Positions 1 to 25,756 of a DNA stretch of 43,102 bases are shown here, piece by piece. The notes beneath the pieces are model-generated. The model was not told the origin of the DNA, did no database searches, and saw nothing but the letters and a program-made list of their open reading frames with translations. Both the position numbers and the translations under genes were made by a program. Within the stretch, counting starts at the first letter, position 1. Each line of letters opens with the position of its first letter. Where the stretch lies: positions 1-43,102 of IMG/VR virus record IMGVR_UViG_3300032893_000113. One strand, written 5' to 3'. The stretch comes from a virus.

Positions 1-3000
1 AGCGGTTAACTTATCGCAGACATCCATCAACTTCGGAGGCGTCAATACTGGCGTCACCAGTTCCCCGGTTATGGTCACGCTCACGAATACGGGCGGGCAA
101 ACGCTCACCATTTCAGGCATTTCGATTACAGGCACCAATGCCGCCGACTTTGCGCAGACGAACACTTGCGGCTCCTCAGTCGGGGCGGGAAATACTTGCA
201 CGATTTCGGTCACCTTTACGCCGAGCGCAACAGGATCACGGGTTGCCTCGGTGCAGATTTCCGATAACGCCTCCAACTCGCCGCAGAGCATTGCTCTGTC
301 GGGCACAGGCACGACGCCCGCAGCCCCGGCAGTCACGCTATCCGCGACTTCGCTAACCTTTGCGGCGCAGGTTGTGGGCACCAGTTCCGCTACTCAAGTG
401 GTTACGCTGACGAACTCAGGCACGGCAAACCTGACATGGACATCGCTCTCGATTACGGCAGGCTCGAGCGATTATTCGCTTCCGGTTGGTTCGAACAATA
501 CATGCGTTTCGCCACTCGCCGCGGCGGCAAACTGCAAAATTGGCGTAACCTTCACGCCAAGCACGACGGGAACGCGCACCGGAACTGTTACCTTAGCCGA
601 CAATGCCAGCGGCAACCCGCATACCATTTCTCTGACAGGAACGGGCACAGCGGGCGCTTTGTCATTCGCGCCCAATCCGCTCGCATTCCCGAATCAGACG
701 GTCAACACGTCCAACGTTCTTTCGATCACCGTCAACAATACTGGTTCGGCCAAAGTTACCTTTACCAGCATTTCCATTACGGGCACGAATGCCAACCAGT
801 TCAATGAAGGCAACAATTGCGGCACGAGCCTTGCAGCGGGCGGAACCTGCCTTATCAATGTCATTTTCTCGCCCACGTCAGCGGCGAGCTTCAGCGCCAA
901 CGCCCACGTCGTCGCCTCGACAGGGACAACGAATGTGCCTTTGACCGGAACAGGCACGGCGGCAGTCGGCCAGACAGCAATACAGGGGCAGGGAACGACC
1001 TCAACCGCATGGCAGGGCATTCATGGCGGCCAAACCATTCACCCTAGCTATTTCGGCCTGCATGTCAATGGCGGCACGGCCAACTGGCCCCCCACGCAGG
1101 GCTTTACCTCATTTGGCACATTGCGCCTTTGGGATAATGGCTCACTGGTTGCGGGCAATCCGACCGAATGGGCACCGTCCTACTGCACCGGAACAAATAC
1201 GCCTGTGGGCTGCTCGGCTGGCAATACCACGCCGCCAACTGTGCCCGTTAATTACACCTTCAACAACCTGAAATCATGGCTTCAGTTGATGAAAACGCAA
1301 TGCACGCTGCAATCCGGGCAGTGCGGCATCGTCATGAACTTGGGGCGCACTCCGCAGTCGATTTCGCCATACCCAGCAGAAACGCAATGCGGCTATCAGT
1401 CGAATGGCGGCGGCCACGGCCAATGCTATCCACCTTACGACATCACAAACGTAGGTGGGGGAACTCCGCCAGCTTGCTGGGTGAACTCCGCAACCTGCAC
1501 CACGGGCTGCTATTCGCAGCAAACTTGCAATGATGATGTTTCAGGGACAGATGCCTACTGGAAAGATTGGGTTGGGCAACTGACGACTACGATTGCTGGT
1601 CTTTCCCCGAGCACCTACCAAATCACCAACATCATCTTCGAGCCTTGGAACGAGATTACATCGGACCTCGCAGTCGGCAATGCAGGCCAGTGGTACAACC
1701 GCAACGAAACCTTGCAGGAAGGCCAACTTGCCATTGATGCGAACACCGTGATTCAGGCCAATAAAGGCTCGCTCAACTGGATCACCACGCTTCCGAACTC
1801 AACGACATGGAACCCGAATAACGTTTCTGGCGGCCATGCGGTGACGCAGTACCAAAAGAATGTTTTATCCGTCTCAAATGTTCCTGCCAATGTGCAGGCA
1901 TCTTCGGTACACGGCTATGTCTCTAACGTCGGCCTTCCCAATGGGCCGGAATCCACTGCCGCGATCCTCATTGATCCGACCTATGGGTTGCGAGCGCCAA
2001 ATTTCCTCTCCAATCAGGCAGGCGCAACCTACACGATTTATGACACCGAAATTTCATGGGGCACGGGCACGCACCTGTCAGACCCCGACCAGCAAAAAGC
2101 TTATGCGGCACGCACATATCTGCTGGGCTGGGGATCGGGCGCGAGCACGGTCATTTGGTACACATGGGATTTAGACAACCATTCCTCAACGAATACCGAT
2201 TCCACGCAGATGTGGAGCGCGACCAATACGGGCGCACAAGTCAATTGCACTGTGGCGCTCACGACCGGGTATCTATGCCCGCCCGGAGTCGGAATCCTCG
2301 CAGCCTATGATTGGATGGTCGGGAACGTTCAGCTTTCGCCTTGTGCTGGCCCGGTTCCGCCAGCAGGCCCCGGCATTTGGTCATGCCAGTTTCAGAAACC
2401 CGATGGAACGCTGCTGTTAGCGGTTTGGGATGCTTCGCAAACCTGTTCCGCTGGTGTCTGCACCTACTCGAATTTTCCCGTTCCGGGCAATTATACGAAG
2501 TACGCCACGCTCGAAGCGCCAACCACCTTCGTGAATGTGGGGAACACGGTGCAGATTGGCATCAAACCGATTCTACTGTCGAACAATATCCCCACGCTCA
2601 CCAGTACGAACCTTTATTGCACGCAAGGCTTAACGAATCCCTATTATGGCGTGGTCAATTATCCGGGCGGCGTCACAACGGATGGCCCTGCAACCCTTCC
2701 CCAGACTTGCAATTATTCCGCGACGTCGGCCACGCCTACCGAAACTTTCGGCTATCCGTCAGGCTCGCAATGCCCCAATACGACCGGAGCCGGACACGTT
2801 ACAACCAACGGTGTGTGTTGGGTTGGCAATCCGGGCGACTTGATCCCGAGCGCCAATTCGAGCGATTTCCACAACAATGGCACCGATCCCCGAGCGGGCC
2901 TGCCTGTCGATTACACCACCATCCAAGCGGCGGTAACGGCCTCAGCTTCAAGCAATGGCATTCACTTCAAGATTCTGCCCACATCGGACAATACGCCCAC

Positions 3001-5800
3001 GGGAACGCGCCGACAGTACCTCGAAAACATCACTTTCCCGAACAATACTGCCGGATGCAGCGCCGCGAATTGGAATTGGTTTACCACCGGAAACATGCTT
3101 GGATTACCCGATGAGAACACTCGTATCACGCCCGGATGGATGGGCGTTACCAGCCTCTATGGGCGGCCAAGTTTTCAGGTTCCACTTGTCGCGGGCGTTT
3201 ATGTTCCCCAAATCATCGGGCAGGCCAAAAACACGAACACGATTCAATGGGACTGGTCTACCTGCAATACGCGCTTCATTGGCTTGGAAGTCACGACGGC
3301 CAGCGGCATCCAGAATAGCGGCGAAATCATGGGCAGGCCGGCAGGCGCATTCGGAACGGGAACCATTTCCGGCTCGACATTCTATGCTCTCGGAACTTTT
3401 GATCTTGACTGGAATAGCTCGGCAATTGGGCCAGTCAACAACTACGACGTTGCGGTTTCCTCAGTTGCGAGCACCACGCAGCTTACCTTTACCAGTTCAC
3501 AATCAACGCTGACAGCCGCGACCGGAGTTTCGGGCTGCGCCAATAGCAAAGGCACCAATGTCGGATGCGGCGCAACCGGATATGCCGTCTATACGGGCAG
3601 CTTTACACCATCGGCATGGCCTGTCGGCTTGCCTATCACGCTCGGGGGCTGCTCGGCGGGCACCAGCGGCGATAAAGCTGCCGTTGAAGGCAATGCGGAG
3701 TTTGTTGCATCGGCCACAGCCACGACCATTACAGCAGCGACAACCGCGCAAACCAGTTCAAGCGTTTCGGGCTGCACTTTGGGACCAAGCGGGGCATTCA
3801 ATATTGCGGCCATCCCCGATTCGATCGTCGTAGATCGCAACATCATTCACGGCGGAAACTCGAACACATTCACCAATGTTTCAGGCGCGAACGATGTAGG
3901 CATCAATATCGGCGGCACGAATATGACCGCCATCAACAACTATATTGCTGACATCTGGTGCAATGTCGCAACCGATTCCGGCGCACACCTTTCCTGCACA
4001 GAGTCACATGGGATTGATGCCGGAATCGCTGGAATGCAGCACACAGTAAAGATTGTCAATAATTTCATCGAAGCATCGGATGAACCTGTATTTATGGGCG
4101 GCGCGGTTGAAACGGCTCCCATTACCGACGTCGAAGTGCGGCGCAATCACTTCTACCACCCACTCTATTGGGATGCGGATTGTGATGACGGTAACGTCAC
4201 CTATGCGAGCACGCCGCTTGCCTTCTGTGGCGGCACTGCGCTCGTAAAGGCCACGCCTTACGTTCCAAACACCATTTCCACCATCAGCATGAGCGGAACA
4301 ACCGAGACGGTCACAGCCACGGCAACACTCGGCTCGGGCGTGAACTTCGTCAATCATGAAGTCGTAATCTCGGGATGCTCTGGTGGAACGAATCTCAACG
4401 GCAGCTTCCGCATTGCGACCAAGACCACAACTTCCATCTCATTTATCAATCAGGCTGGTAGTGGCACCTGTTCAGGCGGGCAGATCGCCATCGCTTTGCA
4501 GCCCACGGTAAAGAACTCGACCGAGTTCAAGATGTGCGTGCAGTGCTTGCTTGAGGCGAATATGCATGACCGTGTTTGGGGGAATGCGGCCACGGTCGGG
4601 CCACAGCAAGGCCAACTGCTGAATCTGAATCCCATCAACAAGCCCAACGATTCCTTCGCACATCCGACCAGCGTTTCCAATGTGACTGTCCGCTATTCGG
4701 CAATGGCTGACGGCAACAAAGGCATCATCATCGGCAACGAGAATCACCCCGGCCCGATGGGAGCTCTAGGGCCTGTCAGCGTTCATGATGTTTCGATTGA
4801 CCTCAATATTTCAAAATGGAATTTGCCCTACAACTGGCAGCCGACAGGCGTCACCATGACAGGAACGGGCGACCAGTGTTCGGTCTATACCAACGGATAT
4901 TCCGCGCCTTCGCAGCCGCAAAACATCACATTCAATCATGTGACATGTGCTCCCTCGCTGATTGGCGGCGCTCCTGTTCCCACCAACCCACACGTTCTGC
5001 TGATGCAGACAACCGATAATTCCAACCGCACGGCTGGAAATGCGGCAACGGGCGTGGTCAATGTCGCGCCAATCTCAGGCTCGGCTTGCATCAATATCGG
5101 TGGGCCGCTTCCGGCAAGTTGCGTAACTTGGGTGTCTGGCTCGCAATTTAATACCACGGCGCTCGCATGGCCGGGGCAGCAGATCGAAGTGAATAGCTCG
5201 TTCTATACGATTGCGACCGTCCAAGATGCCACGCATTTAACGATCTTCGATGCTCCGGGCACGATTACGGGCGGCTCCTACTTTGTCAGTTCGACTACAG
5301 CTGCCGCGCAAACTCCCCCACTCACGCCTTGGCCGTCGATTACCTATGAGAACAACATCGGATCAGGCGCGATCTATAATTCCGCATTCAATCCCTATGT
5401 GAATCTGTTCCCGCAAAGCGGCTCAACGGCTGCTTGTTTTGGCCCGAATATTCTCACGACTGCAAGCTCCAATCAGACGCCGATTTCCGCCAGCACCTTC
5501 CCGAGCGGCTATCTGGATTCGCACTGTGGAACGACGCTTATCAACGGCGTCACAAATGCCGACACGCAAAGTCACCAATTAGGGCCAGACACTTCCGGCA
5601 ATCCGGGCGTCGGCTTCACGCTTTTTACGGATGGCAATATCAGCAACTTGTTCTCGCGTGGAACCAACAATTACACGCTTTGTTCCGCAGTCGGTGGAAC
5701 CTGCACGGGCGTCAGCATGGGCCATGCGGCAGGGAACGACGGCGCAGACATGGGCGCGAACTATCAGCTTTTGCAGAACTATCTTCAGGGGGTTGAGTAA
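1..5800 (+). CDS. Giant multidomain surface/tail protein, 5' end missing: ASH-type repeats, clan-A-like glycosidase, beta-helix
   Basis: The reading frame is open from base 2, so the true start lies outside the window; about 1,932 residues are visible. Three immunoglobulin-like repeats of the choice-of-anchor-D/ASH type begin near bases 2, 329 and 656, each with a VTLTN core and a closing SGTGT-type motif. From about base 1000 to 2570 comes a TIM-barrel glycosidase-like domain: EPWNEI supplies a WNE acid/base Glu (codon at 1652) and YDTEISWG a candidate nucleophile Glu (codon at 2048), the layout of clan GH-A enzymes such as GH39 or GH5. From about 2590 to the end, Asn- and Gly-rich turns after a DYTTIQAAV opening suggest a right-handed beta-helix as in tailspikes. 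ASH repeats are typical of host secreted proteins. A role in binding or cutting surface glycans is inferred; exact GH family and substrate are unknown. Probably continuous with the gene starting at 42955. Stop overlaps the next start (TAATG). Confidence 0.8.
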   Translation, partial: AVNLSQTSINFGGVNTGVTSSPVMVTLTNTGGQTLTISGISITGTNAADFAQTNTCGSSVGAGNTCTISVTFTPSATGSRVASVQISDNASNSPQSIALSGTGTTPAAPAVTLSATSLTFAAQVVGTSSATQVVTLTNSGTANLTWTSLSITAGSSDYSLPVGSNNTCVSPLAAAANCKIGVTFTPSTTGTRTGTVTLADNASGNPHTISLTGTGTAGALSFAPNPLAFPNQTVNTSNVLSITVNNTGSAKVTFTSISITGTNANQFNEGNNCGTSLAAGGTCLINVIFSPTSAASFSANAHVVASTGTTNVPLTGTGTAAVGQTAIQGQGTTSTAWQGIHGGQTIHPSYFGLHVNGGTANWPPTQGFTSFGTLRLWDNGSLVAGNPTEWAPSYCTGTNTPVGCSAGNTTPPTVPVNYTFNNLKSWLQLMKTQCTLQSGQCGIVMNLGRTPQSISPYPAETQCGYQSNGGGHGQCYPPYDITNVGGGTPPACWVNSATCTTGCYSQQTCNDDVSGTDAYWKDWVGQLTTTIAGLSPSTYQITNIIFEPWNEITSDLAVGNAGQWYNRNETLQEGQLAIDANTVIQANKGSLNWITTLPNSTTWNPNNVSGGHAVTQYQKNVLSVSNVPANVQASSVHGYVSNVGLPNGPESTAAILIDPTYGLRAPNFLSNQAGATYTIYDTEISWGTGTHLSDPDQQKAYAARTYLLGWGSGASTVIWYTWDLDNHSSTNTDSTQMWSATNTGAQVNCTVALTTGYLCPPGVGILAAYDWMVGNVQLSPCAGPVPPAGPGIWSCQFQKPDGTLLLAVWDASQTCSAGVCTYSNFPVPGNYTKYATLEAPTTFVNVGNTVQIGIKPILLSNNIPTLTSTNLYCTQGLTNPYYGVVNYPGGVTTDGPATLPQTCNYSATSATPTETFGYPSGSQCPNTTGAGHVTTNGVCWVGNPGDLIPSANSSDFHNNGTDPRAGLPVDYTTIQAAVTASASSNGIHFKILPTSDNTPTGTRRQYLENITFPNNTAGCSAANWNWFTTGNMLGLPDENTRITPGWMGVTSLYGRPSFQVPLVAGVYVPQIIGQAKNTNTIQWDWSTCNTRFIGLEVTTASGIQNSGEIMGRPAGAFGTGTISGSTFYALGTFDLDWNSSAIGPVNNYDVAVSSVASTTQLTFTSSQSTLTAATGVSGCANSKGTNVGCGATGYAVYTGSFTPSAWPVGLPITLGGCSAGTSGDKAAVEGNAEFVASATATTITAATTAQTSSSVSGCTLGPSGAFNIAAIPDSIVVDRNIIHGGNSNTFTNVSGANDVGINIGGTNMTAINNYIADIWCNVATDSGAHLSCTESHGIDAGIAGMQHTVKIVNNFIEASDEPVFMGGAVETAPITDVEVRRNHFYHPLYWDADCDDGNVTYASTPLAFCGGTALVKATPYVPNTISTISMSGTTETVTATATLGSGVNFVNHEVVISGCSGGTNLNGSFRIATKTTTSISFINQAGSGTCSGGQIAIALQPTVKNSTEFKMCVQCLLEANMHDRVWGNAATVGPQQGQLLNLNPINKPNDSFAHPTSVSNVTVRYSAMADGNKGIIIGNENHPGPMGALGPVSVHDVSIDLNISKWNLPYNWQPTGVTMTGTGDQCSVYTNGYSAPSQPQNITFNHVTCAPSLIGGAPVPTNPHVLLMQTTDNSNRTAGNAATGVVNVAPISGSACINIGGPLPASCVTWVSGSQFNTTALAWPGQQIEVNSSFYTIATVQDATHLTIFDAPGTITGGSYFVSSTTAAAQTPPLTPWPSITYENNIGSGAIYNSAFNPYVNLFPQSGSTAACFGPNILTTASSNQTPISASTFPSGYLDSHCGTTLINGVTNADTQSHQLGPDTSGNPGVGFTLFTDGNISNLFSRGTNNYTLCSAVGGTCTGVSMGHAAGNDGADMGANYQLLQNYLQGVE

Positions 5801-6165: not shown

Positions 6166-6503
6166 ATATTTCTCAAGCTTTACGAATTCTTTGGAAGTAC
6201 AAGCAACCCCCGCCGATTGATCGACGCACGTGGCAGTTTTATAAGCGCGATCTCAACGCGAAACCGGGGTTGTATCCCGGCTATGAAATTCCCCGCAGCG
6301 CTAGCCAATTGCAAAAGGATTTGAATAAAGCATCCGATTCTCTCATTCGTCAACAACACACAAATGATGTGCTCGCTTCAAATTTGCTTTATCAGCGGGC
6401 GATTTCAACTCTTTTGCTTTGGGCATTTGGCATAACTTGGTCTGGCATTGGCGGTTTGTTGATTTGGTTGGCGCCTTTTGCGGTGAAGGGCATGGCGAAG
6501 TGA
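6162..6503 (+). CDS. Single-helix membrane protein of the lysis cassette
   Basis: A 113-residue protein with a basic N-terminal half, a polar amphipathic stretch (about residues 45-80) and one C-terminal hydrophobic helix (about 81-105) followed by a short Lys-containing tail. It overlaps both neighbours by 4 bases (ATGA upstream, GTGA downstream). It could be a second holin, an antiholin or a spanin-type accessory protein; the membrane segment is C-terminal rather than N-terminal, which argues against a classical Rz-like inner-membrane spanin. Function unassigned. Confidence 0.6.
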   Translation: MNISQALRILWKYKQPPPIDRRTWQFYKRDLNAKPGLYPGYEIPRSASQLQKDLNKASDSLIRQQHTNDVLASNLLYQRAISTLLLWAFGITWSGIGGLLIWLAPFAVKGMAK

Positions 6504-6925
6504 TAACGAACATCATCGACCAGCTCACCCGCGACGAAGGCGTAAAGCTCTTTCTGTATTACGACCAAATGGGCTTTGCCACTATCGGAATTGGGCGATT
6601 GATTGATGCTCGCCGGGGTGGAGGAATCACGCTGACTGAAGCGCAATATTTGCTTCAGAACGACATCACTCGAACAAAACTCCAACTCGAAGAAACGTTC
6701 CCGTGGGTGACAGGTCTATCCGATGCGCGTTATGGCGTACTGCTTAATATGGCTTTCAACATGGGGGTTGCGGGGCTTGGCGGATTTCGTGACTTTCTCG
6801 CCTCAGTCGCGCAAGGAAATTACGAACTCGCCGCGCAGCAGATGCTCGAATCCGTTTGGGCCAAGCAGGTAGGTCCTCGCGCACAACGCTTGTCGATCCA
6901 AATGCGCGAGGACGCTTGGCAGTAA
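6500..6925 (+). CDS. Endolysin, GH24 (T4-type) lysozyme
   Basis: The predicted 141-residue enzyme hydrolyses the beta-1,4 bond between N-acetylmuramic acid and N-acetylglucosamine. The catalytic triad of T4-type lysozymes is visible as Glu13, Asp22 and Thr28, with the same spacing as Glu11-Asp20-Thr26 in T4 lysozyme, inside RDEGVKLFLYYDQMGFATIG. A longer open frame begins at 6419, but GTG at 6500 is preferred: it has a GAAGGG site about 9 bases upstream, overlaps the previous stop (GTGA), and starts just before the conserved domain. No signal or anchor segment is present at this start, so release depends on the holin-like protein upstream. Confidence 0.88.
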   Translation: MITNIIDQLTRDEGVKLFLYYDQMGFATIGIGRLIDARRGGGITLTEAQYLLQNDITRTKLQLEETFPWVTGLSDARYGVLLNMAFNMGVAGLGGFRDFLASVAQGNYELAAQQMLESVWAKQVGPRAQRLSIQMREDAWQ

Positions 6926-7413: not shown

Positions 7414-8487
7414 TTAAAAACCGAGTGTATAGACTTCCTCATCGTTGCCGAGAACAACAAGCTGGCAAAAAAATCCCGCGCAGTACCCGGCAACATCAAT
7501 CGCGGTGTCATCGGTCGATCCGCCAATCCAGAGGTTTGACCAAGGCCCGTTCACTGCGCCATAGGGCGTGAAATTGGCCGTGTAGACATACCCGAGAGAA
7601 TCAATGATGACCATGTATCCGCCGACGAGAACGACTTTGCGAATATCCCCGTTCGGCAGATACCCACTTGCTGTGTCAGCCCCGGAAGTCACTCTGGCGC
7701 TTACCAAGACTTGTGTTCCACCTTGGCAACCGTGCGTCCAATCGGTTGATGTGTTGGGAGGGCCGCAAAAAATGGCTTTCAGATTATCCGAGCCGCCTGT
7801 CGTGCGGACCACAGCATTCGGGTAGCCATTCGTTCCGATACCGCCCTTTCCAGTCAATCCGGGCTTGTCTCCAAACACAAAAAGCCCATTCGGGAAGCCA
7901 CTAGCGGTGCTATATGGCATCGTGGCCGAAAGGTCGCGTTGCACGGTCGAAGGCGTCAGCGTTGTGTTCCATTGGTACGTGTAGATATGTTGATTCCCCG
8001 GATAGATGCCAGAAAGCAAGGTTCCGGGGGTTGTTGCGTCGTCAGTCGTGATCCGCACATTGTCATCCACGGGAGCCGTGAATGTTCCCTTGCTGAGTAC
8101 GCAAAAGCTAAATGGGTTTGGCGCTCCTGACATATTGGTGAAAGGCTTGATGCGGCCCTCATTCGTAGGGCAGCCGCTATCGGACAACTCGACATAGAAG
8201 CCGAATGTCGAAGTTTCGGGCAGGCCATAGCCGTAATTACCCGATGGGATATACGGGAAGGTTGCGCCGCCCGGTTCCTTGGCCGTGTGATTCACTTGGA
8301 GAAGCGTTTGGGGATTGGGGAAACTGTTTAGCGCAACGCCTTCGGCCACTGCTGGCGGGGATTGATGAACAAAGCAGGCACCGGATGTGTCGGGCCAGTA
8401 GCAAGCGCCGGGAATGGCGTGTTGTGCAAAGGCGGGTAGGACGGCAAGCATAAAAACGGCAAACGACCGTACAATCTTGAAAGCCAT
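7414..8487 (-). CDS. Secreted protein of unknown function, Sec signal peptide
   Basis: A 357-residue protein starting MAFKIVRSFAVFMLAVLPAF and then AQ: a basic n-region, hydrophobic core and an AFA|Q signal-peptidase-I site. The start at 8487 is chosen over an upstream in-frame codon at 8538 because AGAGGAGA lies about 9 bases upstream. The mature part has several Cys pairs and Gly/Asn/Thr-rich, beta-type sequence (for example GYMVIIDSLGYVYTANF), compatible with a beta-propeller or lectin-like fold, but I cannot name a family. It is the last gene of the leftward block, set off by about 96 bases and its own strong ribosome site, so it may be an independently expressed accessory gene acting outside the host cytoplasm. 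Confidence 0.75.
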   Translation of the reverse strand: MAFKIVRSFAVFMLAVLPAFAQHAIPGACYWPDTSGACFVHQSPPAVAEGVALNSFPNPQTLLQVNHTAKEPGGATFPYIPSGNYGYGLPETSTFGFYVELSDSGCPTNEGRIKPFTNMSGAPNPFSFCVLSKGTFTAPVDDNVRITTDDATTPGTLLSGIYPGNQHIYTYQWNTTLTPSTVQRDLSATMPYSTASGFPNGLFVFGDKPGLTGKGGIGTNGYPNAVVRTTGGSDNLKAIFCGPPNTSTDWTHGCQGGTQVLVSARVTSGADTASGYLPNGDIRKVVLVGGYMVIIDSLGYVYTANFTPYGAVNGPWSNLWIGGSTDDTAIDVAGYCAGFFCQLVVLGNDEEVYTLGF

Positions 8488-11453: not shown

Positions 11454-11806
11454 TTCATCTCCCTATCCAGAACTCCCCGCAGCGCCGCCATCGCGGTTCT
11501 CAACTTGTCGGAATCCCCGCACGCATTCAAGACCCGTTGCGCTGCTTCTCTGATTTCTGTAGAGTCCGCTGCGGCCTCGGCGGGATCGTCAATTATCATC
11601 CAGTGAGTGATTTGCTCGGGATCAAGAAATATCGGGTCATCGCAGGGATCGGTGCGCTCAAGCTGCCAACGCTTGTATTCCGGGCAAAACCATGCTGATT
11701 CCCAGCGACCAGCAGTTGTGAATACCAACACCGCTTCACTTGGAGGTTCGCCTTCAGCCTTCAGCCATTTCATCGTTGGGGCGGGTTGCTTACTTACTTC
11801 AGTCAT
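11450..11806 (-). CDS. DUF551-like protein
   Basis: A 118-residue protein. The first 75 residues carry the DUF551 pattern: MKWLKAEGEPPSEAVLVFTT, a Trp-rich strand pair and ITHWMIIDDP. A C-terminal helix (AAQRVLNACGDSDKLRTAMA) follows. DUF551 proteins are common small proteins in phage accessory operons with no settled function. Coupled by ATGA at both ends. Confidence 0.65.
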   Translation of the reverse strand: MTEVSKQPAPTMKWLKAEGEPPSEAVLVFTTAGRWESAWFCPEYKRWQLERTDPCDDPIFLDPEQITHWMIIDDPAEAAADSTEIREAAQRVLNACGDSDKLRTAMAALRGVLDREMK

Positions 11807-12507
11807 AGAGTCGCCTTTATTTCCAAAAGTCTCTCCGCATAGTCGGCCACGCAGGAAGCTAGCTCTGGGGGAATTGTGGCTGCCAGCGCTGTATCTCTGC
11901 TTCGTTGCGGGCTACTCGACCATCCCTGGTTCCATTTGAACTGGGCGCGATATTCGCGGCGCTCCGCGATGCTCATCTGCTTGACTAATTTGCTTGAGCC
12001 TATGTCGATGCCCTTGGTTATTCCTTGCGGCAGAAGGGGCGCTACAGCATTCCCCCAGAGGTAGAATGGACCGCAGTGTGCTTGGGCCTCGCCTACAAAT
12101 TTCTGTGCTGGTCTCACATTTTCCATGATGTAGCGCACGCCGGCCCGCTCCAATAATGCCCGCGTGTAATTAAACAGTTCGATTCCCTCGAACGGATACT
12201 CCGGCTCTGGATGAAAATGGGCCATGCCCCAAATCGAGAACTTCTCGCATGGACTCGATGCACATACAAAATCCGGTTCGTACTCCCACAGGTCTGGGCC
12301 ACGATCTTCGTGCTCTCGGATAATGAATCGCCCTTGGCTGGCTTTGATCTGCAGCACGTTAGCCTGCACAAACTCACCTCGGTAATCGGGATTCCGCACC
12401 AGGTCCACGCCTACCACTTCCCATCCTCGATCTAGAAAGGCGTTCGTCCACCCGCCCCTGCCGCAAAACAAGTCCAGCATTCTCCGGGGGCGCTCATCCT
12501 TGCTCAT
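11803..12507 (-). CDS. Orphan DNA (cytosine-5) methyltransferase
   Basis: A 234-residue enzyme of the C5-cytosine methyltransferase superfamily, expected to transfer a methyl group from S-adenosylmethionine to cytosine in phage and host DNA. Motif I is LDLFCGRGG (residues 11-19). Motif IV is SSPCEKFS with catalytic Cys87, in place of the usual PPCQxFS. Motif VI ENV is at residues 129-131, and a motif-X-like helix is near the C-terminus (IPPELASCVADYAERLL). It is shorter than most bacterial enzymes and has little room for a target-recognition domain, as in other phage versions. No restriction enzyme is next to it; protection from host restriction or regulation is the usual role. Confidence 0.8.
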   Translation of the reverse strand: MSKDERPRRMLDLFCGRGGWTNAFLDRGWEVVGVDLVRNPDYRGEFVQANVLQIKASQGRFIIREHEDRGPDLWEYEPDFVCASSPCEKFSIWGMAHFHPEPEYPFEGIELFNYTRALLERAGVRYIMENVRPAQKFVGEAQAHCGPFYLWGNAVAPLLPQGITKGIDIGSSKLVKQMSIAERREYRAQFKWNQGWSSSPQRSRDTALAATIPPELASCVADYAERLLEIKATL

Positions 12508-13217
12508 TGACTCACCGCCGGGAATTGGTTGATTAACAGGTCTGCCGAGATTCTCGCTTTGCCTTCAGCGGGGGTGTGAGCGGAGCGCTGTTTCATAAAG
12601 AATGCGATGTTGTAAATCTCGCACTCGTCGCGCATGTCTCTCGCCCATTGCTCCAGATCGGGTCGGCGGTTATTCCCTGATTCACCGCCGTAGACCACCC
12701 AAACAGGCTTAGGTGCCCAGCGAATGAACGTGATATGGCCTAGCGCGGGTTCGTAGCTGACCCACTTAATTCCCGGCAATTCCCACATCACGGCCCAACG
12801 CTCATCGAAATGAGCTTGATCTTCTGCCGTGAAGCCCTTCCAGATGCGGGTCGAATTCATCAAGTCCGCAGGAAGATACCGCGCGTATCCGCGAGGACGT
12901 TTCGTCAAAAGCTGCCACGTCAGGTTAGGTGTCGAGCGAATCAAGTCCCACAGCCGCTCGCGCTGGCCTTCCGGGGCTTCATCGTCGAACACATCGGCCA
13001 TCGAAGCGCAGAACACTCTCCCGCTCCATTTCAGAGGCTCCCGCCAATGCTTATCGCCAAACGTGCGCCGAGGCTTTCCCGGCCCCCAATGATCTCCGCC
13101 GACGCGCTTATCGAAAGTCTCCGCGTAACAGTTCACGCAACCGGGCGAGACGCGAGTGCAGCCCCACCAAGGATTGAATGTGTGATCCGTCCAACTGATT
13201 GCCGTTACTTCGCCCAT
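12504..13217 (-). CDS. Gp37/Gp68 family (DUF5131) protein
   Basis: A 237-residue protein opening MGEVTAISWTDHTFNPWWGC, then CVNCYAE, CASMADVFDD, LTKRPRGY and VVYGGESGNNRR. These are the signature blocks of the phage Gp37/Gp68 (DUF5131) family, which has a TIM-barrel resembling radical-SAM proteins; the clustered Cys residues near the N-terminus fit a metal site. ATG at 13217 is preferred over a TTG at 13295 because conserved sequence begins right there and GTGGA lies just upstream. It overlaps the methyltransferase by 4 bases. The biochemical function of the family is not firmly known. Confidence 0.78.
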   Translation of the reverse strand: MGEVTAISWTDHTFNPWWGCTRVSPGCVNCYAETFDKRVGGDHWGPGKPRRTFGDKHWREPLKWSGRVFCASMADVFDDEAPEGQRERLWDLIRSTPNLTWQLLTKRPRGYARYLPADLMNSTRIWKGFTAEDQAHFDERWAVMWELPGIKWVSYEPALGHITFIRWAPKPVWVVYGGESGNNRRPDLEQWARDMRDECEIYNIAFFMKQRSAHTPAEGKARISADLLINQFPAVSQ

Positions 13218-13311
13218 AAAATTCCACTCGGCTCCTTGCTCATTGACTCTGGCTCCTACGCTTTTATTTCTGGATTGGACGTTTTCAGCGACCAAATCAC
13301 CAGATAAGGAT

Positions 13312-13749
13312 TCAGGCTGAGCGGCGATCTGACTTTTTCCGGTGCTCGCGCAATTTCGCTTGCTCGCTCTGGGCTTGCTTCTTGTCCGCTCCGTCCATTG
13401 TCTTTTGATCCGCTAGCCTCTGAAAGCATGGAAACCTCTCCTCGAACTTCAGTGTTTTTGGTTGTTCTAAATTGATACGTGTTGCTTTCGCCATCTGGTA
13501 CTGTGCAAGAATCCAGCGTTCTTCCATGAACTTCTCAAATGATTTATTGCCTCTCAATCGGTTGCAGGGCAGACACGCAATTAACACGTTTTCCGCGCAA
13601 TCAGGACCGCCTTTGGATAACGGGATAAAGTGATCTGGAACGGCTTTGTCGTCAGCCTCGGGTTCCGGGCAATCCAGCACAGGCTTTCCACACCAAAAGC
13701 ACCGGAAACCCGATTCGAGCAGACGGTTTTTCCACTCCAGTTTGGTCAC
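13312..13749 (-). CDS. HNH endonuclease
   Basis: A 145-residue protein with a zinc-binding HNH fold: CFWC at residues 17-20, the DHFIPLSKGGPDCAEN block (Asp39-His40, Asn54) and CLPCNRLRGNKS (Cys59, Cys62, Asn63). The C-terminal third is Lys/Arg/Gln-rich and probably binds DNA. It overlaps the upstream gene by 4 bases. In phages such enzymes are either packaging-associated nickases or free-standing homing nucleases; its place among recombination genes rather than beside the terminase favours a nicking or homing role. Confidence 0.78.
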   Translation of the reverse strand: MTKLEWKNRLLESGFRCFWCGKPVLDCPEPEADDKAVPDHFIPLSKGGPDCAENVLIACLPCNRLRGNKSFEKFMEERWILAQYQMAKATRINLEQPKTLKFEERFPCFQRLADQKTMDGADKKQAQSEQAKLREHRKKSDRRSA

Positions 13750-18721: not shown

Positions 18722-19261
18722 TTGAATGTGCAGAGTCTTTCTAAAGACGAGCTCAGGCGGCTCCTTGATGTGGCCCGCGCACACCGCGAGCGTGACTGGC
18801 TCATGATCCTCGTTGCTTATAACCACGGCTTGCGAGTCTCGGAAGTACTTGCAATCACGAGAGATGACGTGCAAGGCGGCTTTCTTCGAGTGCAACGGCT
18901 GAAAGGCTCAAAACGTACCGTGCAGCCGCTAATCTGTCACGCAGATCCGCTCTTGAGCGAAGGCCCCGCGCTCATTGAATTGGCTCGCAAAACTCTCCGG
19001 AGCCGACCGTTATTCAATGTCAGTCGCGTCCATGCCTGGCGTCTCATGAAGCGCTACGCCGCAATCGCCAACGTCGCGCTCCACAAGGCTACCCCGCACT
19101 CGCTCAAATCCTCGTGCGCTCGCCAAATTATTGCGACAGAGGGCGTTCCCGCTACACAGGAATGGCTCGGCCACAAATCCGGCAAGTCTACCCTTGAATA
19201 CACCAAACTGTCCGCTGAGGAAGCGGCAGCAGCCGCCAAACGTGCTTTAAGCGGTGTCTGA
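18722..19261 (+). CDS. int: Compact tyrosine recombinase/integrase
   Basis: A 179-residue catalytic-domain-only tyrosine recombinase. Visible active-site elements are Arg38 in NHGLRVSEVL, His126 and Lys129 in PHSLKSSCA (the usual HxxR position carries Lys), His151 in WLGHKSG and nucleophile Tyr160 in LEYTKL. A block RLKGSKRTVQPL matches what I recall of a compact family of about 180-200 residues in which HxLK is normal, so this is probably full length rather than truncated. Start is TTG 18722 or GTG 18728; neither has a ribosome site. Expected role: integration/excision or circle resolution by site-specific recombination. Confidence 0.78.
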   Translation: MNVQSLSKDELRRLLDVARAHRERDWLMILVAYNHGLRVSEVLAITRDDVQGGFLRVQRLKGSKRTVQPLICHADPLLSEGPALIELARKTLRSRPLFNVSRVHAWRLMKRYAAIANVALHKATPHSLKSSCARQIIATEGVPATQEWLGHKSGKSTLEYTKLSAEEAAAAAKRALSGV

Positions 19262-19284: not shown

Positions 19285-22200
19285 ATGGGGTTTCAGCATG
19301 GATCAAGTCTCGGTGATCTTGCTCGGCGCTTTCGTGGTTGCCTTGCTCATTGTGCTGGTTTGGCCGTCGCCGCCTCGTTACTGACTGCAGGCCAAGCATT
19401 TGCGCAGAACGTGCGCTACGATGCGCAATATCCTTCTATCGTTACCGGGCAATCGACGCCCTATCTGGTAGCGAATATCCCGCCCAATTCCCCCAAGCTT
19501 GCCGTTTGCACCGTTCCCGCGAATGGCGTGCCCTGCACCAACTATGCAACCACCTACAATTCCCAAGGCGTAGCCTGCCCAAATGGGGCGCAAGATACGC
19601 CCCAGCCTCAGCCAAGCGCCTGCCAGCCGACCGGGGATGCGCAGGGAAACATCGGGTTTTGGGCACCAGCCGGGAGCTACGATTACACCGTTTGCATTGG
19701 CACCAGCTGCTTTGGGCCTTACCGCGTCACGCTTGGCGGCTCGGGCGGATCAGGAATCGAGCTTCAGACCAATGGCACCAACAACGGCTCGCAAACCAAG
19801 CTCAATCTGACAGGCACAGGAACCACGACCGTCACCGACAATGGCTCGGGAACGGTCACAATCAATTCCACGGGAACGGGCGGCGGCGGAATAACGGGCA
19901 CCTTAACGAACAATTTTGTACCTAAAGCGACCTCTACAGGTACAAACGGAACGGTTGGGAACAGTTCGGTACAGGAAATAGCCTCAACTAATAGTGTTCC
20001 GGTCATAAATGTGCCCCGATTGGAGCAAGTTAGGTACACAGATAACTTCATTTGGTCTCAGAATCCAAATTCTCCTTCCTCGATTGCCCCCGGATCAAAC
20101 GTCATCACGATTGTCTGCCCATATGGGATTGATGCCACGCTGCCCGATTATTGGATCGATATTGGTACTACGGGAACGGCTGAGGCGGCTCCGGTCACGG
20201 CCACATCCTGCACGGCGGCCACGGTTGGCAGTTCCGGCACAATTACGGTGACAGCACGCAATACGCACGCAGCCGGGTACTCGGTCGGAACGGCCTCGAA
20301 TGGCGCTCAAGAGGCCATTAACGACGGCTTGGTTACATCCTCCAGCGCCCATAATGTAAAGGTCGTGCTGCCATGCGGCGCGAATGGCGCGACAATCGCA
20401 TGGGATGCGCCTGTAGAAACGCATGGGAATCATGTGTTTATCGAAGGCGGCGGCTGTGCGCGAATCCTGCAAACGCATCGGCAAGCTGGGCTGATTCTCG
20501 GCAATCGCACTGCCGGCGGAACATTCTTCTTTAATACCGTTCATGCCTTGCAGTTTCAGCCCGGATACGCGGGCACCGCGCCCCAAGTCAATCTCATCAC
20601 CAGCATGTCGCGTACGGGCTGCCCTTCGGCCTGTGTCGCAACCTTCAATTTCGGCAGTTCGCACGACTTGCTGGTAGGCGATTGGGTGATCGTTGGCGGA
20701 AATCTGAATGACAATACCTTCGCTGGTGACTACCAAATTGCGACCGTGCCCAGCGGAACGCAGGTCACAGCCACGCCGCTCTCGAATGCTGCAAACAATC
20801 CTGCCACGGTTTACGCAGGCGGCTACGTCATTGAGCAGTACATCCCCATTTTGGACAACCTGACCATTGAGGGCTACAACGATCAAGTTTCGCTGGTTTC
20901 AACGTCGGGCCTGACGCGGCCTTACGTTTCTGGCGAAGAAGTCTTGGCCGATCAGTCAGCCAACATCCTCCAATTCTCAAACTCAGGTTCCGGGGCCGTA
21001 TTCATGACCCCAACCGATGAATTTCAGCCCAAAATGATCTTTTCTCCCGGTCCAAACAGCCCCAGCGGGGCCGTGGCATTCATTTATGGGGCGAATATGT
21101 CGATGCAGAACACGGGTGACTGTATCGACTGGCAATCCGGCGATGATCTATTCATCACCGATGGCGTTTGTCAGGGATTCGTCAAGAATGGCATCCGTTT
21201 CAGTCAGCGAAGGGGAGGATTCGGAGCTTTTTCCTCCAAAGGCTTGCACTATGAGGGCAGTTTTGGGGGCGTAACGCAGGGAATGACCGCTACCGGGTAC
21301 GCAGGGCTGCTTGATGTGGGCGGAACAAGCGAAGTGGCAAGCGGCGAAAACTCTGCCCCCTATGGTGGGATGCCGCTTTATGCCACGGTCGGGAATGCCT
21401 TGCTCAACTGGTTTTATTACGTGCAGCCGATTGCGAGCACTTCTGACCCAATGTGCTCGTCGCAGCCGCCTGATGGCACAACCGGAGTCACCAATTTGCA
21501 GCGCTGCGCCCTGAATCTTGGTACCGGGCCAGTCTTGTTTGCAGGCTGGGCGCAGGTCGATTCCTCAAGTGGCGGCACGGTGCCTGTGACCTTCAATGCC
21601 ATCCCCGGCGCGACTTCATACAAACTGCTTCGCACGAATGGCCCGACGTCAGGAAACTTCGAAACCGCGCCCTATGGCACAGGTAATTATCTGATTGCCA
21701 CGGTCAACCCGCTAAGTTCCTGCACAGACGCGATTTGCACAGTCAGCGATTCGGTCGGCCTGACGCCTTCGTCTTACACCGTTCCCACCTATGGGCTGCA
21801 CAGCTATTACCCTTACCTGGCGGCGTGGCCCGGAGCGGTGGTCATTTCGAACAATTCGGATGCGGGCGGCACTGGCTCGGCTTCGGTTCCGAACGGCTCA
21901 TATTTTGGCCCGTACAACCAAGGCGGCAACAATGCGCCGATCATAACCACGACGCTGCCCAGCCAAGACGCGGTAATCCTGAACAATCCGATTACCGGGG
22001 CGGTAGTCGGAGCAAGCAGCCCATTGCAAGGCTCGCCATTTGCGTGGCGCGGCGGCGGCTTCACTTCCTCAGGGAATCAGGCATTACCTGGCTGGGCCAC
22101 CCTGGTGCCGGCCAAAAACATGCTGGTGGGCGATGGCGGAACTCTCACCAACCTGAAAGGCTTATTCAATTTCGGCACAACCCTCAGCCCGACCGCTCCC

Positions 22201-22581
22201 TTTGACCTCATCACGTTTTACGATGCCGCGTATGCCAAAACGCTGGCAACTTACGGCCACAGACCCTCAAACGATGCTGGCGACTGCGCTATCGGTATGG
22301 ATGTCACGCAGGCAGGCTTAAGCATTCGCTGCAATACGTCCATCGGCTTCTATGTGAATCACGTGAATGACGGCTCAAACTGGAAGGCCCAAGTCAATGC
22401 AAACGGGATTCAGACCAAGCCGGGGGCGTTTTCCACGCTGGCAACGTGCAATTCTGGCTTGGAAGGGGCGCGAGCTGCGGTAACGGACTCGACTACGGCC
22501 ACGTTTGGGGCAACGATCAGCGGAAGCGGATCAAATCATGTACCTGCCTACTGCAATGGCACAAATTGGGTGGTGCAGTAA
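19285..22581 (+). CDS. Large secreted-type beta-helix (tailspike-like) protein
   Basis: About 1,098 residues from ATG 19285 (TTG 19273 would add four). The N-terminus has RRFRG, a hydrophobic stretch and an AFA|Q site at residues 40/41, a Sec-type signal. Residues about 45-200 are Ser/Thr/Gly-rich linker. From about residue 330 the GAQEAINDG motif and GNHVFIEGGG-type turns introduce a pectate-lyase-like right-handed beta-helix that extends to about 600 (for example DNLTIEGYNDQVSLVS). The C-terminus ends CNGTNWVVQ, close to the DGTNWW motif of two other proteins here. It looks like a glycan-binding or depolymerase tailspike, yet carries an export signal. It sits apart from the other tail genes, directly before the terminase. 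Confidence 0.7.
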   Translation: MGFQHGSSLGDLARRFRGCLAHCAGLAVAASLLTAGQAFAQNVRYDAQYPSIVTGQSTPYLVANIPPNSPKLAVCTVPANGVPCTNYATTYNSQGVACPNGAQDTPQPQPSACQPTGDAQGNIGFWAPAGSYDYTVCIGTSCFGPYRVTLGGSGGSGIELQTNGTNNGSQTKLNLTGTGTTTVTDNGSGTVTINSTGTGGGGITGTLTNNFVPKATSTGTNGTVGNSSVQEIASTNSVPVINVPRLEQVRYTDNFIWSQNPNSPSSIAPGSNVITIVCPYGIDATLPDYWIDIGTTGTAEAAPVTATSCTAATVGSSGTITVTARNTHAAGYSVGTASNGAQEAINDGLVTSSSAHNVKVVLPCGANGATIAWDAPVETHGNHVFIEGGGCARILQTHRQAGLILGNRTAGGTFFFNTVHALQFQPGYAGTAPQVNLITSMSRTGCPSACVATFNFGSSHDLLVGDWVIVGGNLNDNTFAGDYQIATVPSGTQVTATPLSNAANNPATVYAGGYVIEQYIPILDNLTIEGYNDQVSLVSTSGLTRPYVSGEEVLADQSANILQFSNSGSGAVFMTPTDEFQPKMIFSPGPNSPSGAVAFIYGANMSMQNTGDCIDWQSGDDLFITDGVCQGFVKNGIRFSQRRGGFGAFSSKGLHYEGSFGGVTQGMTATGYAGLLDVGGTSEVASGENSAPYGGMPLYATVGNALLNWFYYVQPIASTSDPMCSSQPPDGTTGVTNLQRCALNLGTGPVLFAGWAQVDSSSGGTVPVTFNAIPGATSYKLLRTNGPTSGNFETAPYGTGNYLIATVNPLSSCTDAICTVSDSVGLTPSSYTVPTYGLHSYYPYLAAWPGAVVISNNSDAGGTGSASVPNGSYFGPYNQGGNNAPIITTTLPSQDAVILNNPITGAVVGASSPLQGSPFAWRGGGFTSSGNQALPGWATLVPAKNMLVGDGGTLTNLKGLFNFGTTLSPTAPFDLITFYDAAYAKTLATYGHRPSNDAGDCAIGMDVTQAGLSIRCNTSIGFYVNHVNDGSNWKAQVNANGIQTKPGAFSTLATCNSGLEGARAAVTDSTTATFGATISGSGSNHVPAYCNGTNWVVQ
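19298..19384 (+). CDS. Possible 28-residue membrane peptide nested in the next gene
   Basis: In the +1 frame relative to the large protein: MDQVSVILLGAFVVALLIVL then VWPSPPRY, one clean hydrophobic helix with a short tail. GGGG lies 8 bases before its ATG, which is better than anything before the large gene's own start. Hydrophobic sequence in an alternative frame of a signal peptide can arise by chance, so this is only a candidate. Confidence 0.3.
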   Translation: MDQVSVILLGAFVVALLIVLVWPSPPRY

Positions 22582-22931
22582 TGCCACGCGGCGGGGCTAG
22601 GCCGGGAGCGGGGCGCAAAAAGAAGCCCACGCCTGAAGTGGTGCAGGTTCGCCAGAAAGATCATGCAGCCCAGCTTCTAGCGGCTCTGAACCGACCAGCC
22701 AGCGAGAAAGACAGCTACGAAGTGCAGAAATTTCGACTGATTGACGACGCTGGCGTGACCGAATCGAGCAACCTGCGCAAATGGCTCTATGACAAGCGCG
22801 ACGGATTGCCTGTTCGCACCGTGAACCATTTGCACGATAAACCCTTGGAAATGAACGTCAATTTTACCCTCAGCGAAAAAATGAGGGCCGCAATGGAGAA
22901 AGCAGAGAAGCGTGTCAGCGAACGCAGTTGA
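22581..22931 (+). CDS. Terminase small subunit candidate
   Basis: A 116-residue protein beginning MPRGGARPGAGRKKKPTPEV, the basic N-terminal signature seen in many small terminase subunits, followed by a helical, charged body. Its ATG overlaps the previous stop (TAATG) and its end overlaps the large terminase by 20 bases. Small terminases bind the packaging-initiation site and recruit the large subunit; assignment rests on the N-terminal motif and position. Confidence 0.7.
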   Translation: MPRGGARPGAGRKKKPTPEVVQVRQKDHAAQLLAALNRPASEKDSYEVQKFRLIDDAGVTESSNLRKWLYDKRDGLPVRTVNHLHDKPLEMNVNFTLSEKMRAAMEKAEKRVSERS

Positions 22932-24411
22932 TTACGAACAGGCATTGGTAGATCGCCTGTACGACTTTCGGCACGATCCGCTGGGCGCGGTGCTCTATGG
23001 CTTTCCTTGGGGCGAAGGCGAACTCCGCGATTACAGAGCGCCTTGGGCATGGCAGGAAGAATTGCTGCGCGATGTTGGAGCGCACCTGCAAAACCCGGAA
23101 ACCCGCTTCAAACCCGGTCGGTTTGCTCGCAGTTCCGGGCACGGCATTGGCAAATCTGCGCTGGTTGCTCAACTGATCTGGTGGGGCATGAGCACGGCAA
23201 AAGACTGCCGCATTATCGTCACCGCAAACACGAAGAATCAGTTAGATACCAAGACTCAGCCCGAGGCCGCGAAATGGTTTCGCATGGCAATAAATGCCGA
23301 CTGGTTTGAAGTGAACGTGGCTTCGATCAAGGTGAGAGATGCCTCCGCAGATCGCGGCTGGCGTGCCGATTTCATCCCGTGGTCGGAAGATAACCCGCAA
23401 GCTTTCGCAGGAGCGCACAACGCAGGCAAGCGGCTGATGATCTTTTGCGACGAAGCCAGCGAAATCGCAGACATCATTTTCGAAGTCATCAATGGCGCAT
23501 TGACCGACGCGAATACCGAAATCCTGTTCTTTCAGTTTGGAAACCCGACCAGGCGGCAAGGTCACTTCTATGAGAGTGTTTTCGGTGCGTTTCGGCACCG
23601 TTGGAGCGGAAAAGCGATTGATTCGCGTACCGTGGAAGGCTCAAACAAGGTCGAAATTGCTCAATGGGTGGAAGATTATGGGGAAGATTCCGATTTTGTG
23701 CGCGTTCGCGTGCGCGGATTACCCCCAAAGAGCGAGAGTGCGCAATTTATCGACAATGAACTGATTGAAGCGGCGCAGAAAAGGGTTGTGCGTACCCTGC
23801 CAGATGACGCACTGGTTGCGGGCGTGGATTTTGCATGGGGTGGGTCGGATGACAACATCATCAGGTTTCGGAAAGGTGCGGACGCTCGAAGCATTCCACC
23901 AATCAAGATTAAAGGTGAGTTCACCCGCGAGGCTGCCGTCATGGTGGGCAAGCTCTCCGATGTCCTTACCCGCAGCTACGGTGGGGAAAAGGTCGCTATG
24001 CTGTTTTTCGACTCCGCTGGGATCGCTGCCCCGGTGGAAGCGCGGCTTCGCGCTCTTGGGCATAAAAATATTATGGTGGTTAACTTCGGCGCGGACTCTC
24101 CCGACCACCATTACGCATATTTCCGTGACTGTCTCTGGGGAAGAATGAAGGAATGGCTTGCCTATGGCGCAATCGACAAGGATCGCGGATTAGCCGAGGA
24201 CCTCGCCAAGCCCATTCTGGTGGATGACCCAAGGCAGCGCGTCAAACTTGAGCCGAAGCCTGTGATGAAGCGCCGTTTGGCGAAGTTGGGCCTCGATTCA
24301 AGCTCGCCTGACGACGGTGATGCACTCGCGTTGACGTTTGCCATGCCCGTTTTGCCGCCGAAGAAAAAGGCGCGAACTTCAAGCCCTGCCAGTTATGGAG
24401 CGTGGTCGTGA
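22912..24411 (+). CDS. terL: Terminase large subunit
   Basis: A 499-residue packaging motor and nuclease. The Walker A loop is SSGHGIGKSAL with Lys81; Walker B is RLMIFCDEAS with Asp180-Glu181; a coupling motif FGNPT follows at about 209. The RNase-H-like nuclease domain shows GVDFAWGGSDD (Asp306), LFFDSAG (Asp367) and a final DDGDALAL acidic cluster. GTG at 22912 is the start and overlaps the small subunit. It hydrolyses ATP to pump DNA into the procapsid and cuts the concatemer. Headful versus site-specific cutting cannot be told from sequence, though P22-type relatives use headful packaging. Confidence 0.9.
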   Translation: MSANAVDYEQALVDRLYDFRHDPLGAVLYGFPWGEGELRDYRAPWAWQEELLRDVGAHLQNPETRFKPGRFARSSGHGIGKSALVAQLIWWGMSTAKDCRIIVTANTKNQLDTKTQPEAAKWFRMAINADWFEVNVASIKVRDASADRGWRADFIPWSEDNPQAFAGAHNAGKRLMIFCDEASEIADIIFEVINGALTDANTEILFFQFGNPTRRQGHFYESVFGAFRHRWSGKAIDSRTVEGSNKVEIAQWVEDYGEDSDFVRVRVRGLPPKSESAQFIDNELIEAAQKRVVRTLPDDALVAGVDFAWGGSDDNIIRFRKGADARSIPPIKIKGEFTREAAVMVGKLSDVLTRSYGGEKVAMLFFDSAGIAAPVEARLRALGHKNIMVVNFGADSPDHHYAYFRDCLWGRMKEWLAYGAIDKDRGLAEDLAKPILVDDPRQRVKLEPKPVMKRRLAKLGLDSSSPDDGDALALTFAMPVLPPKKKARTSSPASYGAWS

Positions 24412-25267: not shown

Positions 25268-25756
25268 GTGACTGTCTCAATCAAAACCAAGCTTGACCAT
25301 GAGCTAAAGCGCAAAGGCTTTGGCGGCTTGGATGACCCGCGCCTGATTCAGCAGATCGCCTTCTGTGTCCGCGATCACGTCCATTTGCGGCAAATCCTTG
25401 TCACCGTCGTGCCTGAGAAGCGCACGCAAGCCTATGAAGCGATGCGGCCCTATCTGCGCTTTGAAGCGAAGCCGTTGGACGTGTATATCGCGGAAGCTGC
25501 CGACCTTGCCGCCCGAAAAGAGCAGGATCAGACCAAGATTGATGTCATTGCGGAGAAGGCAATTGCTCGAGCCGAGCGCGAATGGCAATCGAATGGGAAG
25601 CGCCTGATTCTGGTTTGCGTGAAATGCACGCGCCAAGAGGATTTCCCTGCATCCGAGCGCTTCATTGCGGCTGGTGACGCCTACCGCGAAGGCTGGCGCA
25701 AGGATGATGGCAAGGTTTATTGCAAGACGTGTGCCCCAAAAATCGTTATTGAGTAA
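25268..25756 (+). CDS. Hypothetical protein upstream of portal
   Basis: A 162-residue protein with GTG start 2 bases after the previous stop. The body is helical and charged; the C-terminus has LVCVKCTRQEDF and YCKTCAPK, two CxxC pairs suggesting a zinc ribbon. It ends coupled to the portal (TAATG). Function unknown. Confidence 0.6.
   Translation: MTVSIKTKLDHELKRKGFGGLDDPRLIQQIAFCVRDHVHLRQILVTVVPEKRTQAYEAMRPYLRFEAKPLDVYIAEAADLAARKEQDQTKIDVIAEKAIARAEREWQSNGKRLILVCVKCTRQEDFPASERFIAAGDAYREGWRKDDGKVYCKTCAPKIVIE

Follow-up and report, generated by a model that had tools for sequence, protein, structure and literature searches.

Introduction

Filamentous-phage coat proteins bear signal peptides and cross the inner membrane, and the filaments are extruded through that membrane. 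For tailed phages, synthesis and assembly of the virion proteins are assumed to take place in the cytoplasm, and P22 tailspikes can be joined to completed heads outside the cell. In the open-access literature, which mostly leaves subscription journals outside, we found no paper that deals with signal peptides on virion proteins of tailed phages and none on the addition of P22 tailspikes to finished heads. In the part consulted, PMC5723332 describes signal peptides in two Bacteroides phages and does not name virion proteins. WceF of Pantoea, the product of a bacterial gene in a biofilm operon, is described as a trimeric, tailspike-like beta-helix enzyme with a Tat signal (PMC7949094). Two cultured podophages, Tunturi 1 and 2, infect the Terriglobia bacterium Tunturiibacter, and the excerpt of the report on them makes no remark on signal peptides (PMC11924767).

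Here, we analysed a linear virus record of 43,102 bases, the whole of which is referred to as the window. An earlier note had singled out a giant open reading frame at its left end as a phage tail-type protein with the architecture of a secreted glycosidase. We report that the gene most likely begins with a Sec signal peptide, and that comparable signal peptides are found on fibre, spike and coat-adjacent genes of the same virus and its relatives. The best reading of the giant ORF and of the signal-peptide set, to which we assign a probability of about 0.6, is that of an exported, disulfide-bonded tail appendage.

Methods

Signal peptides were called with a home-made Sec rule, based on n-, h- and c-regions and on small residues at positions -3 and -1, and by eye. 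Homologues were taken from 122 viral loci (L002, L004-L044 and L136-L215), the coat relatives being the best 80 of 320. For a whole-record check of 25 relatives, most of each record's sequence was fetched.

Results and discussion

Gene order and phage type

The window carries a P22-type morphogenetic block, recognized by Pfam and PHROG profile matches, with terminase, portal, scaffold, coat, connector and ejection genes. It includes the terminase large subunit (22912-24411), the P22-like portal (25756-27993; PF16510, 2e-101) and the P22-like major coat protein (28997-30229; PF11651, 1.3e-26), all on the plus strand. The portal, scaffold, coat and connector genes are of P22 type and stand in the P22 order, which identifies a P22-like podophage. 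The P22-type head genes and the lysis genes rule out that the window is a fragment of a host chromosome. Directly 3' of the major coat gene lies a gene here called coat+1 (30244-30954, plus strand); a small gene without PHROG match (30954-31364) separates it from a gp4-like gene. A spike-like protein of 1098 amino acids is encoded at 19285-22581, and three fibre genes follow one another at 38548-40167 (fibre1), 40180-42222 (fibre2) and 42231-42953 (fibre3), again all on the plus strand.

At the left end, the lysis region after the giant gene contains a lysozyme/endolysin gene (6419-6925, plus strand; phrog_7 endolysin, 2.1e-16). Just beyond this region, on the strand opposite to the late genes, a protein of unknown function without PHROG match is encoded (7414-8487, minus strand), with a predicted signal peptide (8487-8425) and eight mature cysteines. 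Further along the minus strand, at 11803-13749, genes for a DNA methyltransferase (phrog_363), a conserved unknown protein (phrog_2045, 3.4e-70) and an HNH endonuclease stand in a row. A short integrase is found at 18722-19261 (phrog_1, 1.5e-23), and several relatives likewise have integrase matches ahead of their terminase gene, so the phage group may be temperate.

A giant gene divided between the ends of the record

The giant ORF (2-5800, plus strand; 1932 amino acids) is open at its 5' end and would represent the C-terminal part of the proposed appendage. The ASH/choice-of-anchor-D repeats described in the earlier note are borne out: within one open frame, three repeats with a Cys pair in each occupy positions 2-958. 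Residues ~3-320 match NCBIfam NF012200 at 2.9e-52 (175.7 bits for a curated cut-off of 45) as well as the Pfam profiles Cep192_D4 (6.8e-26) and ASH (1.1e-13), and three separate matches range from 3.3e-20 to 5.3e-25, which places the region in the choice-of-anchor-D/ASH group. The earlier note called such repeats unusual in tailspikes; in phage hydrolases they have precedents, the Erwinia phages phiEaP8, Ea9-2, Frozen and others carrying them too. The repeats are followed by a putative clan-GH-A-like domain of 551 residues (959-2611) and by a C-terminal region that looks beta-helix-like by eye (2612-5800).

Over residues 2-860, the giant ORF is 63% identical to a 2762-aa protein of locus L002, in which a signal peptide, an ASH repeat, a long domain, three ASH repeats, a GH-like domain and a long C-terminal region succeed one another; similarity to the latter region is partial (27% over residues 1334-1492). 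The L002 gene stands after a fibre2 homologue, as does a gene start at the right end of the window, where the last 148 bases (42955-43102, plus strand) open a new gene at ATG 42955. This gene starts with a predicted signal peptide (42955-43005), cut at FA^Q, behind which an ASH repeat begins. Since the L002 protein has the same plan and the same position after fibre2, the giant gene most likely begins at this right end. The two ends cannot simply be joined as a cut circle, as the direct join is out of frame and sequence must therefore be missing between them; the last 12, 16, 20 and 25 bases have no exact match in the first 3000. The missing stretch may perhaps hold the extra domain seen in L002.

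The giant gene stands after the ejection and fibre genes and just before the lysis genes, among signal-peptide-bearing fibre and spike genes. Its position and neighbours suggest that the protein, whose N-terminal part falls in the missing stretch, is a part of the virion. The very likely Sec signal peptide at the 5' end of the gene lends support to the idea of a secreted-type architecture in a tail-region protein. The further suggestion of a lysogenic-conversion enzyme for plant polymers is weakened by the location among fibre, spike and lysis genes, which in L002 is likewise after a fibre2 homologue.

A candidate glycosidase domain

Two motifs, EPWNEI at residue 547 and TEISWG at residue 682, supply a candidate acid/base, E551 (1652-1654, in EPWNE), and a candidate nucleophile, E683 (2048-2050). 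Both residues are kept in L002, the sole relative found, which reads SECAWG for TEISWG and whose domain is 60% identical by tblastn and 64% by alignment. This Asn-Glu motif and the second conserved Glu make a carbohydrate-active role of the giant protein plausible. The combination of ASH repeats, glycosidase and beta-helix in one chain, as proposed from the sequence in the earlier note, stands for the repeats and for both motifs; profile searches returned no glycosidase family, of clan GH-A or other, in Pfam or NCBIfam, and the beta-helix, seen by eye, has no Pfam or PDB sequence match in residues 870-1932. An AlphaFold2 (AF2) model of the GH-like domain built from two sequences was unusable (pLDDT 30.4). 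The best PDB match, 5jvk, which we take to be a GH39-type glycosidase of clan GH-A, was not significant (E 0.17), with the TEISWG stretch aligned to TEIGW.

Residues 320-870 might instead form a binding domain or a decayed enzyme, which would be compatible with an exported appendage. The lack of a significant family or structure match speaks in favor of this alternative, as do the single relative from which conservation is judged and the rarity of the domain. In viral contigs only L002 was found, and in whole virus records the one match among 42 was L002's own record. A match in record G088, the one hit in a set of 47 records, covers 52 positions at E 3.7e-4 in a frame with a stop and was judged to be chance. 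No relative was confirmed in genome contigs in two pattern-based scans, in which distant relatives can be missed, and none was found at E<=1 among phages (50,697 records) and plasmids; the one Granulicella plasmid record searched, the only Acidobacteriota record covered, gave nothing. The conservation of the NE motif and of the second Glu in L002 argues against a mere binding domain or decayed enzyme, and so, weakly, does the strand/helix order of the low-confidence AF2 model, where strands fall just before both motifs. We consider the alternative unlikely, though it retains some weight, and retain a putative glycosidase as the working assignment of the domain.

Signal peptides by gene family

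In the window, the rule detects signal peptides on coat+1 (30244-30303), fibre1 (38548-38604), fibre2 (40180-40239), fibre3 (42231-42284) and the minus-strand gene at 7414, plus ORFs shorter than 170 aa. Sec signal peptides are also seen by eye at the 5' end of the giant gene and on the 19285 spike (to 19404, cut QAFA^QNVRYD), the latter being missed by the rule in the window owing to a long n-region. No core structural gene of the window carries one. The same division is found across the 122 viral loci, where none of the 375 homologues of 11 core genes has a signal peptide, 5'-open ORFs (17 in core families) being left out: terminase 18, portal 55, scaffold 58, coat 69, ORF 30954 35, gp4-like 43, gp10-like 39, head-morphogenesis 20 and ejection genes 18, 15 and 5. 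By the rule, signal peptides are present in 44 of 54 coat+1 homologues, 18 of 27 fibre2 homologues (4 further ones being 5'-open and left out), 5 of 9 spike homologues and 0 of 3 fibre1 homologues, one of which, in L185, has a leader by eye. The fibre2 homologue with a signal peptide in L002 is 46% identical to that of the window. Fibre3 has no homologue in these loci; a relative in record G075, guessed by eye, was dropped, as BLAST at 1e-2 listed none among the ORFs of the fetched records.

Several coat+1 misses were traced to a wrong first start codon under the rule. When the search was anchored on the mature part, signal peptides were found in 58 of 59 coat+1 proteins at a score of at least 6 and in 54 of 59 at a score of at least 8; the single miss, in L145, has a longer leader by eye. 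Chance is ruled out as the source of these leaders by the 0 of 375 core genes and by a control with shuffled N-termini, in which 13.1 of 376 and 0.2 of 12 signal peptides were expected and 42 and 5 seen. Lipoprotein signals are ruled out too, the residue after the cut being Q or T and not C.

In the whole-record check, coat+1 has a signal peptide at a score of at least 8 in 18 of the 25 relatives. Two more records, G056 and G067, reveal it only with the anchored search (L157 at 6.6 and L177 at 9.1), and G088 and G089 have no coat+1 match but a signal peptide on fibre1. Neither feature is present in G049, G050 (near-identical to G049) and G075, where no listed ORF has a signal peptide at a score of at least 8; in G050, a coat+1-type N-domain is found on a Met-starting protein without cysteine. 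In these three records (L234-L236, L253-L254), another coat-adjacent protein, beginning MPRVSSHF.. or MANRVSSHF.., replaces coat+1. A gp4 homologue (G056 1618) that scored exactly 8.0, the threshold, from an internal start was taken as false.

The export signal of the giant protein is not peculiar to it but common to surface-protein genes of the phage group, and the protein itself probably belongs to a larger set of surface proteins with signal peptides in a soil phage. Of the comparable ORFs in the listed loci, the longest, at 8684-18877 of L014, encodes a tail-region protein of 3397 aa that combines a signal peptide with 48 cysteines in its mature part.

A tailspike domain at the predicted cleavage site of fibre1

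Residues 20-115 of fibre1 (38605-38889) form a podophage tailspike N-terminal domain found in 22 of 50,697 phage records, by which fibre1 is recognized as a podophage tailspike or fibre. The domain is 46% identical over 97 aa to the tail spike of Xanthomonas phage PBR31 (E 3e-15). It begins at the initiator Met in all six fetched homologues from named phages, and at the predicted cut, WA^QVPVSLAP, in the window. Of the 80 top-ranking viral loci out of 572, seven have a signal peptide with a score of at least 8; three weaker rule hits that cut inside the domain were not counted. The rule's cut coincides exactly with the matched domain start in five of the seven and lies one residue inside in one, while in L064 it falls four residues before the domain start, where an A^Q cut is visible by eye.

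In a set of 90 distinct domains, drawn from more records and with a different criterion, 19 are of the signal-peptide type and 71 of the Met type. Their tree was built from a small number of columns and its deep branches are poorly supported, so that one origin of the signal peptide fits as well as a few; on it the label changes three times, for a mean of 17.5-17.6 after shuffling and none of 500 shuffles as low. Record G063 has a Met-type fibre1 among signal-peptide-type rows, yet a signal peptide on coat+1. By analogy with P22-type tailspikes, the fibre1 N-terminal domain would attach to the virion.

The coat+1 fold

The AF2 model of coat+1, built from 45 sequences, reached a pLDDT of 88.5 and yielded 119 BFVD matches at E<=0.001, the best being full-length with a TM of 0.71 and several others being tail fibres. 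For residues 1-76, the top four PDB entries are all phage virion proteins: a VP1 capsid chain (Z 11.0, rmsd 2.1, 75 residues), the JBD30 baseplate (9.9), the Mystique tail tube (9.7) and the GP4 portal-tail (9.5). Matches at Z ~8, mostly ATP synthase (F-ATPase) barrels, were not used, and this ranking leaves room for unlisted families. With phage virion proteins as its top fold matches, coat+1 is probably a virion-surface protein, as judged from the predicted model; its gene adjoins the coat gene in relatives as well.

Cysteine counts

Fibre1 proteins of the signal-peptide type contain about three times more cysteine than their homologues without signal peptide, with 1.66 per 100 aa (n=8) against 0.54 in the Met type (n=58 of 73, the 15 under 200 aa being dropped; p 3.5e-5). 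Mature coat+1 has an even number of cysteines (2, 4 or 6) in all 47 distinct closed sequences, which are homologues and hence not 47 independent trials. Among other signal-peptide proteins with two or more cysteines, the number is even in 35 of 45, against 236 of 430 proteins without signal peptide. In the window, the mature signal-peptide proteins have 4, 6, 14, 4, 22 and 8 cysteines and the cut giant protein 48. This parity is evidence separate from the leader sequence itself, and the pattern would be the one expected of disulfide-bonded exported proteins.

Tunturi phages and the likely host

In Tunturi 1 (24 CDS checked), the rule finds signal peptides on gp12, gp13, gp14, gp16 and gp17, all in the tail region, and also on gp22, next to the endolysin; Tunturi 2 (16 CDS checked) has the same pattern. 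The depositors named gp14 'tail spike protein' or 'pectin lyase' and gp17 'virion structural protein'. The portal, coat, scaffold and other structural genes checked in both phages lack signal peptides. Mature gp12, gp13, gp14 and gp17 have 20, 10, 20 and 32 cysteines in Tunturi 1 and 20, 10, 20 and 34 in Tunturi 2, and gp16 has an odd count of one. No signal peptide was found at the annotated starts of structural genes in Tunturi 3 (27 CDS) and Tunturi 4 (18 CDS), which are also Terriglobia phages, so the pattern is not a rule of the host. As far as predicted leaders tell, signal peptides on tail-region proteins thus exist in real infectious phages, though not in all phages of such hosts. In Tunturi 4 (L278 6273-7151), a protein labelled 'head-tail adaptor Ad1' opens like an Ig-type repeat protein (SLTATPATAGLGSPVTLTAVVT), and the label may be wrong.

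In the plasmid collection, the ASH repeats of the giant protein have their highest identity in Granulicella (42% over 64% of the query), with Variovorax at 30% over the whole length. These repeats and the Tunturi-like pattern suggest that the host of the window's phage is probably an acidobacterium (Acidobacteriota, Terriglobia).

A proposed assembly route

In the proposed model, the giant ORF would encode the C-terminal, larger portion of a tail appendage, a spike or fibre, in a P22-like podophage from soil. The protein would be made with a cleavable Sec signal peptide, pass the inner membrane, and fold and gain disulfides in the periplasm. The mature appendage would attach to a polysaccharide of a surface or matrix and probably hydrolyse it via its clan-GH-A-like domain, which would sit on ASH spacers beside beta-helix-like domains. 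Coat+1, the spike and the other fibres would be exported too, and head, portal, connector and ejection proteins would remain in the cytoplasm, so that heads would fill there while the appendages oxidise in the periplasm. Both sets would most likely come together at lysis, as the contents of periplasm and cytoplasm mix, and the N-terminus left on fibre1 by cleavage would then serve as the usual head-binding N-terminus of a tailspike. Of the steps in this model, docking at lysis has the least support; the signal peptides hint at virions completed outside the compartment of head building. The full two-compartment scheme, with DNA-filled heads in the cytoplasm, all outer-surface proteins in the periplasm, junction only at lysis and a docking N-terminus made by signal peptidase, is advanced tentatively, at somewhat below even odds.

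Export could also serve proteins outside the virion, namely free depolymerases or adhesins used for matrix loosening, superinfection exclusion or by the lysogen. Signal peptides and even numbers of cysteines are compatible with plain secretion, an integrase is present in the window, and bacteria do export tailspike-fold enzymes, as the excerpt on WceF describes (PMC7949094). Free enzymes are harder to reconcile with a tailspike N-terminal domain immediately past the fibre1 cut, with the virion-protein fold of coat+1 and its place beside the coat gene in relatives, and with the names that the depositors gave to gp14 and gp17 of Tunturi 1; we regard this explanation as improbable. That the hydrophobic N-termini are uncleaved anchors holding appendages to the inner membrane or within the particle, as the long leaders of L145 and L157 might suggest, is very improbable given the small residues at -3 and -1, the Q that follows the cut in all 58 coat+1 leaders (a count biased towards Q, the cut being free to shift to a nearby one), the tailspike domain starting at the cut and the even cysteine counts.

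If the exported tail appendage is real, the restriction of signal peptides to surface-protein genes would imply a different assembly route and disulfide-hardened appendages, and some signal-peptide-bearing glycosidases of soil viruses now classed as auxiliary metabolic genes would instead belong to tail appendages. The export model can be tested directly in Tunturi 1, for which a cultured Terriglobia host is available.

Comparison with known systems

Filamentous phages differ from the present case in being membrane-extruded filaments, whereas the window represents a tailed phage whose core genes have no signals. WceF of Pantoea shares with the proposed appendages a tailspike-like enzyme with an export signal; it is encoded in a bacterial biofilm operon and uses a Tat signal, in contrast to the phage genes and Sec signals of the window. 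The candidate glycosidase domain resembles clan GH-A/GH39-type enzymes such as 5jvk in its Asn-Glu pair, in a second Glu ~130 residues on and in TEISWG for TEIGW, but matches them at E 0.17 only and has no family profile match. The ASH hydrolases of Erwinia and Pseudomonas phages (phiEaP8, Ea9-2, Frozen, Skulduggery; phrog_18474) also combine ASH-type repeats with an annotation as hydrolase, and the phrog_18474 'hydrolase' profile matches the ASH part of the giant protein at 1.6e-39; the match is restricted to that part, at 26-40% identity. The tailspikes of P22-like podophages, PBR31 and relatives, have the N-terminal domain of fibre1 and its place after the ejection genes, and differ in that fibre1 of the window has a signal peptide of 19 aa ahead of the domain. 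Tunturi 1 and 2 carry other proteins, the ASH-GH protein of the window having no tblastn match there or elsewhere in the whole phage collection, but share with the window large, cysteine-rich, signal-peptide-bearing proteins in the tail region and core structural genes free of signal peptides.
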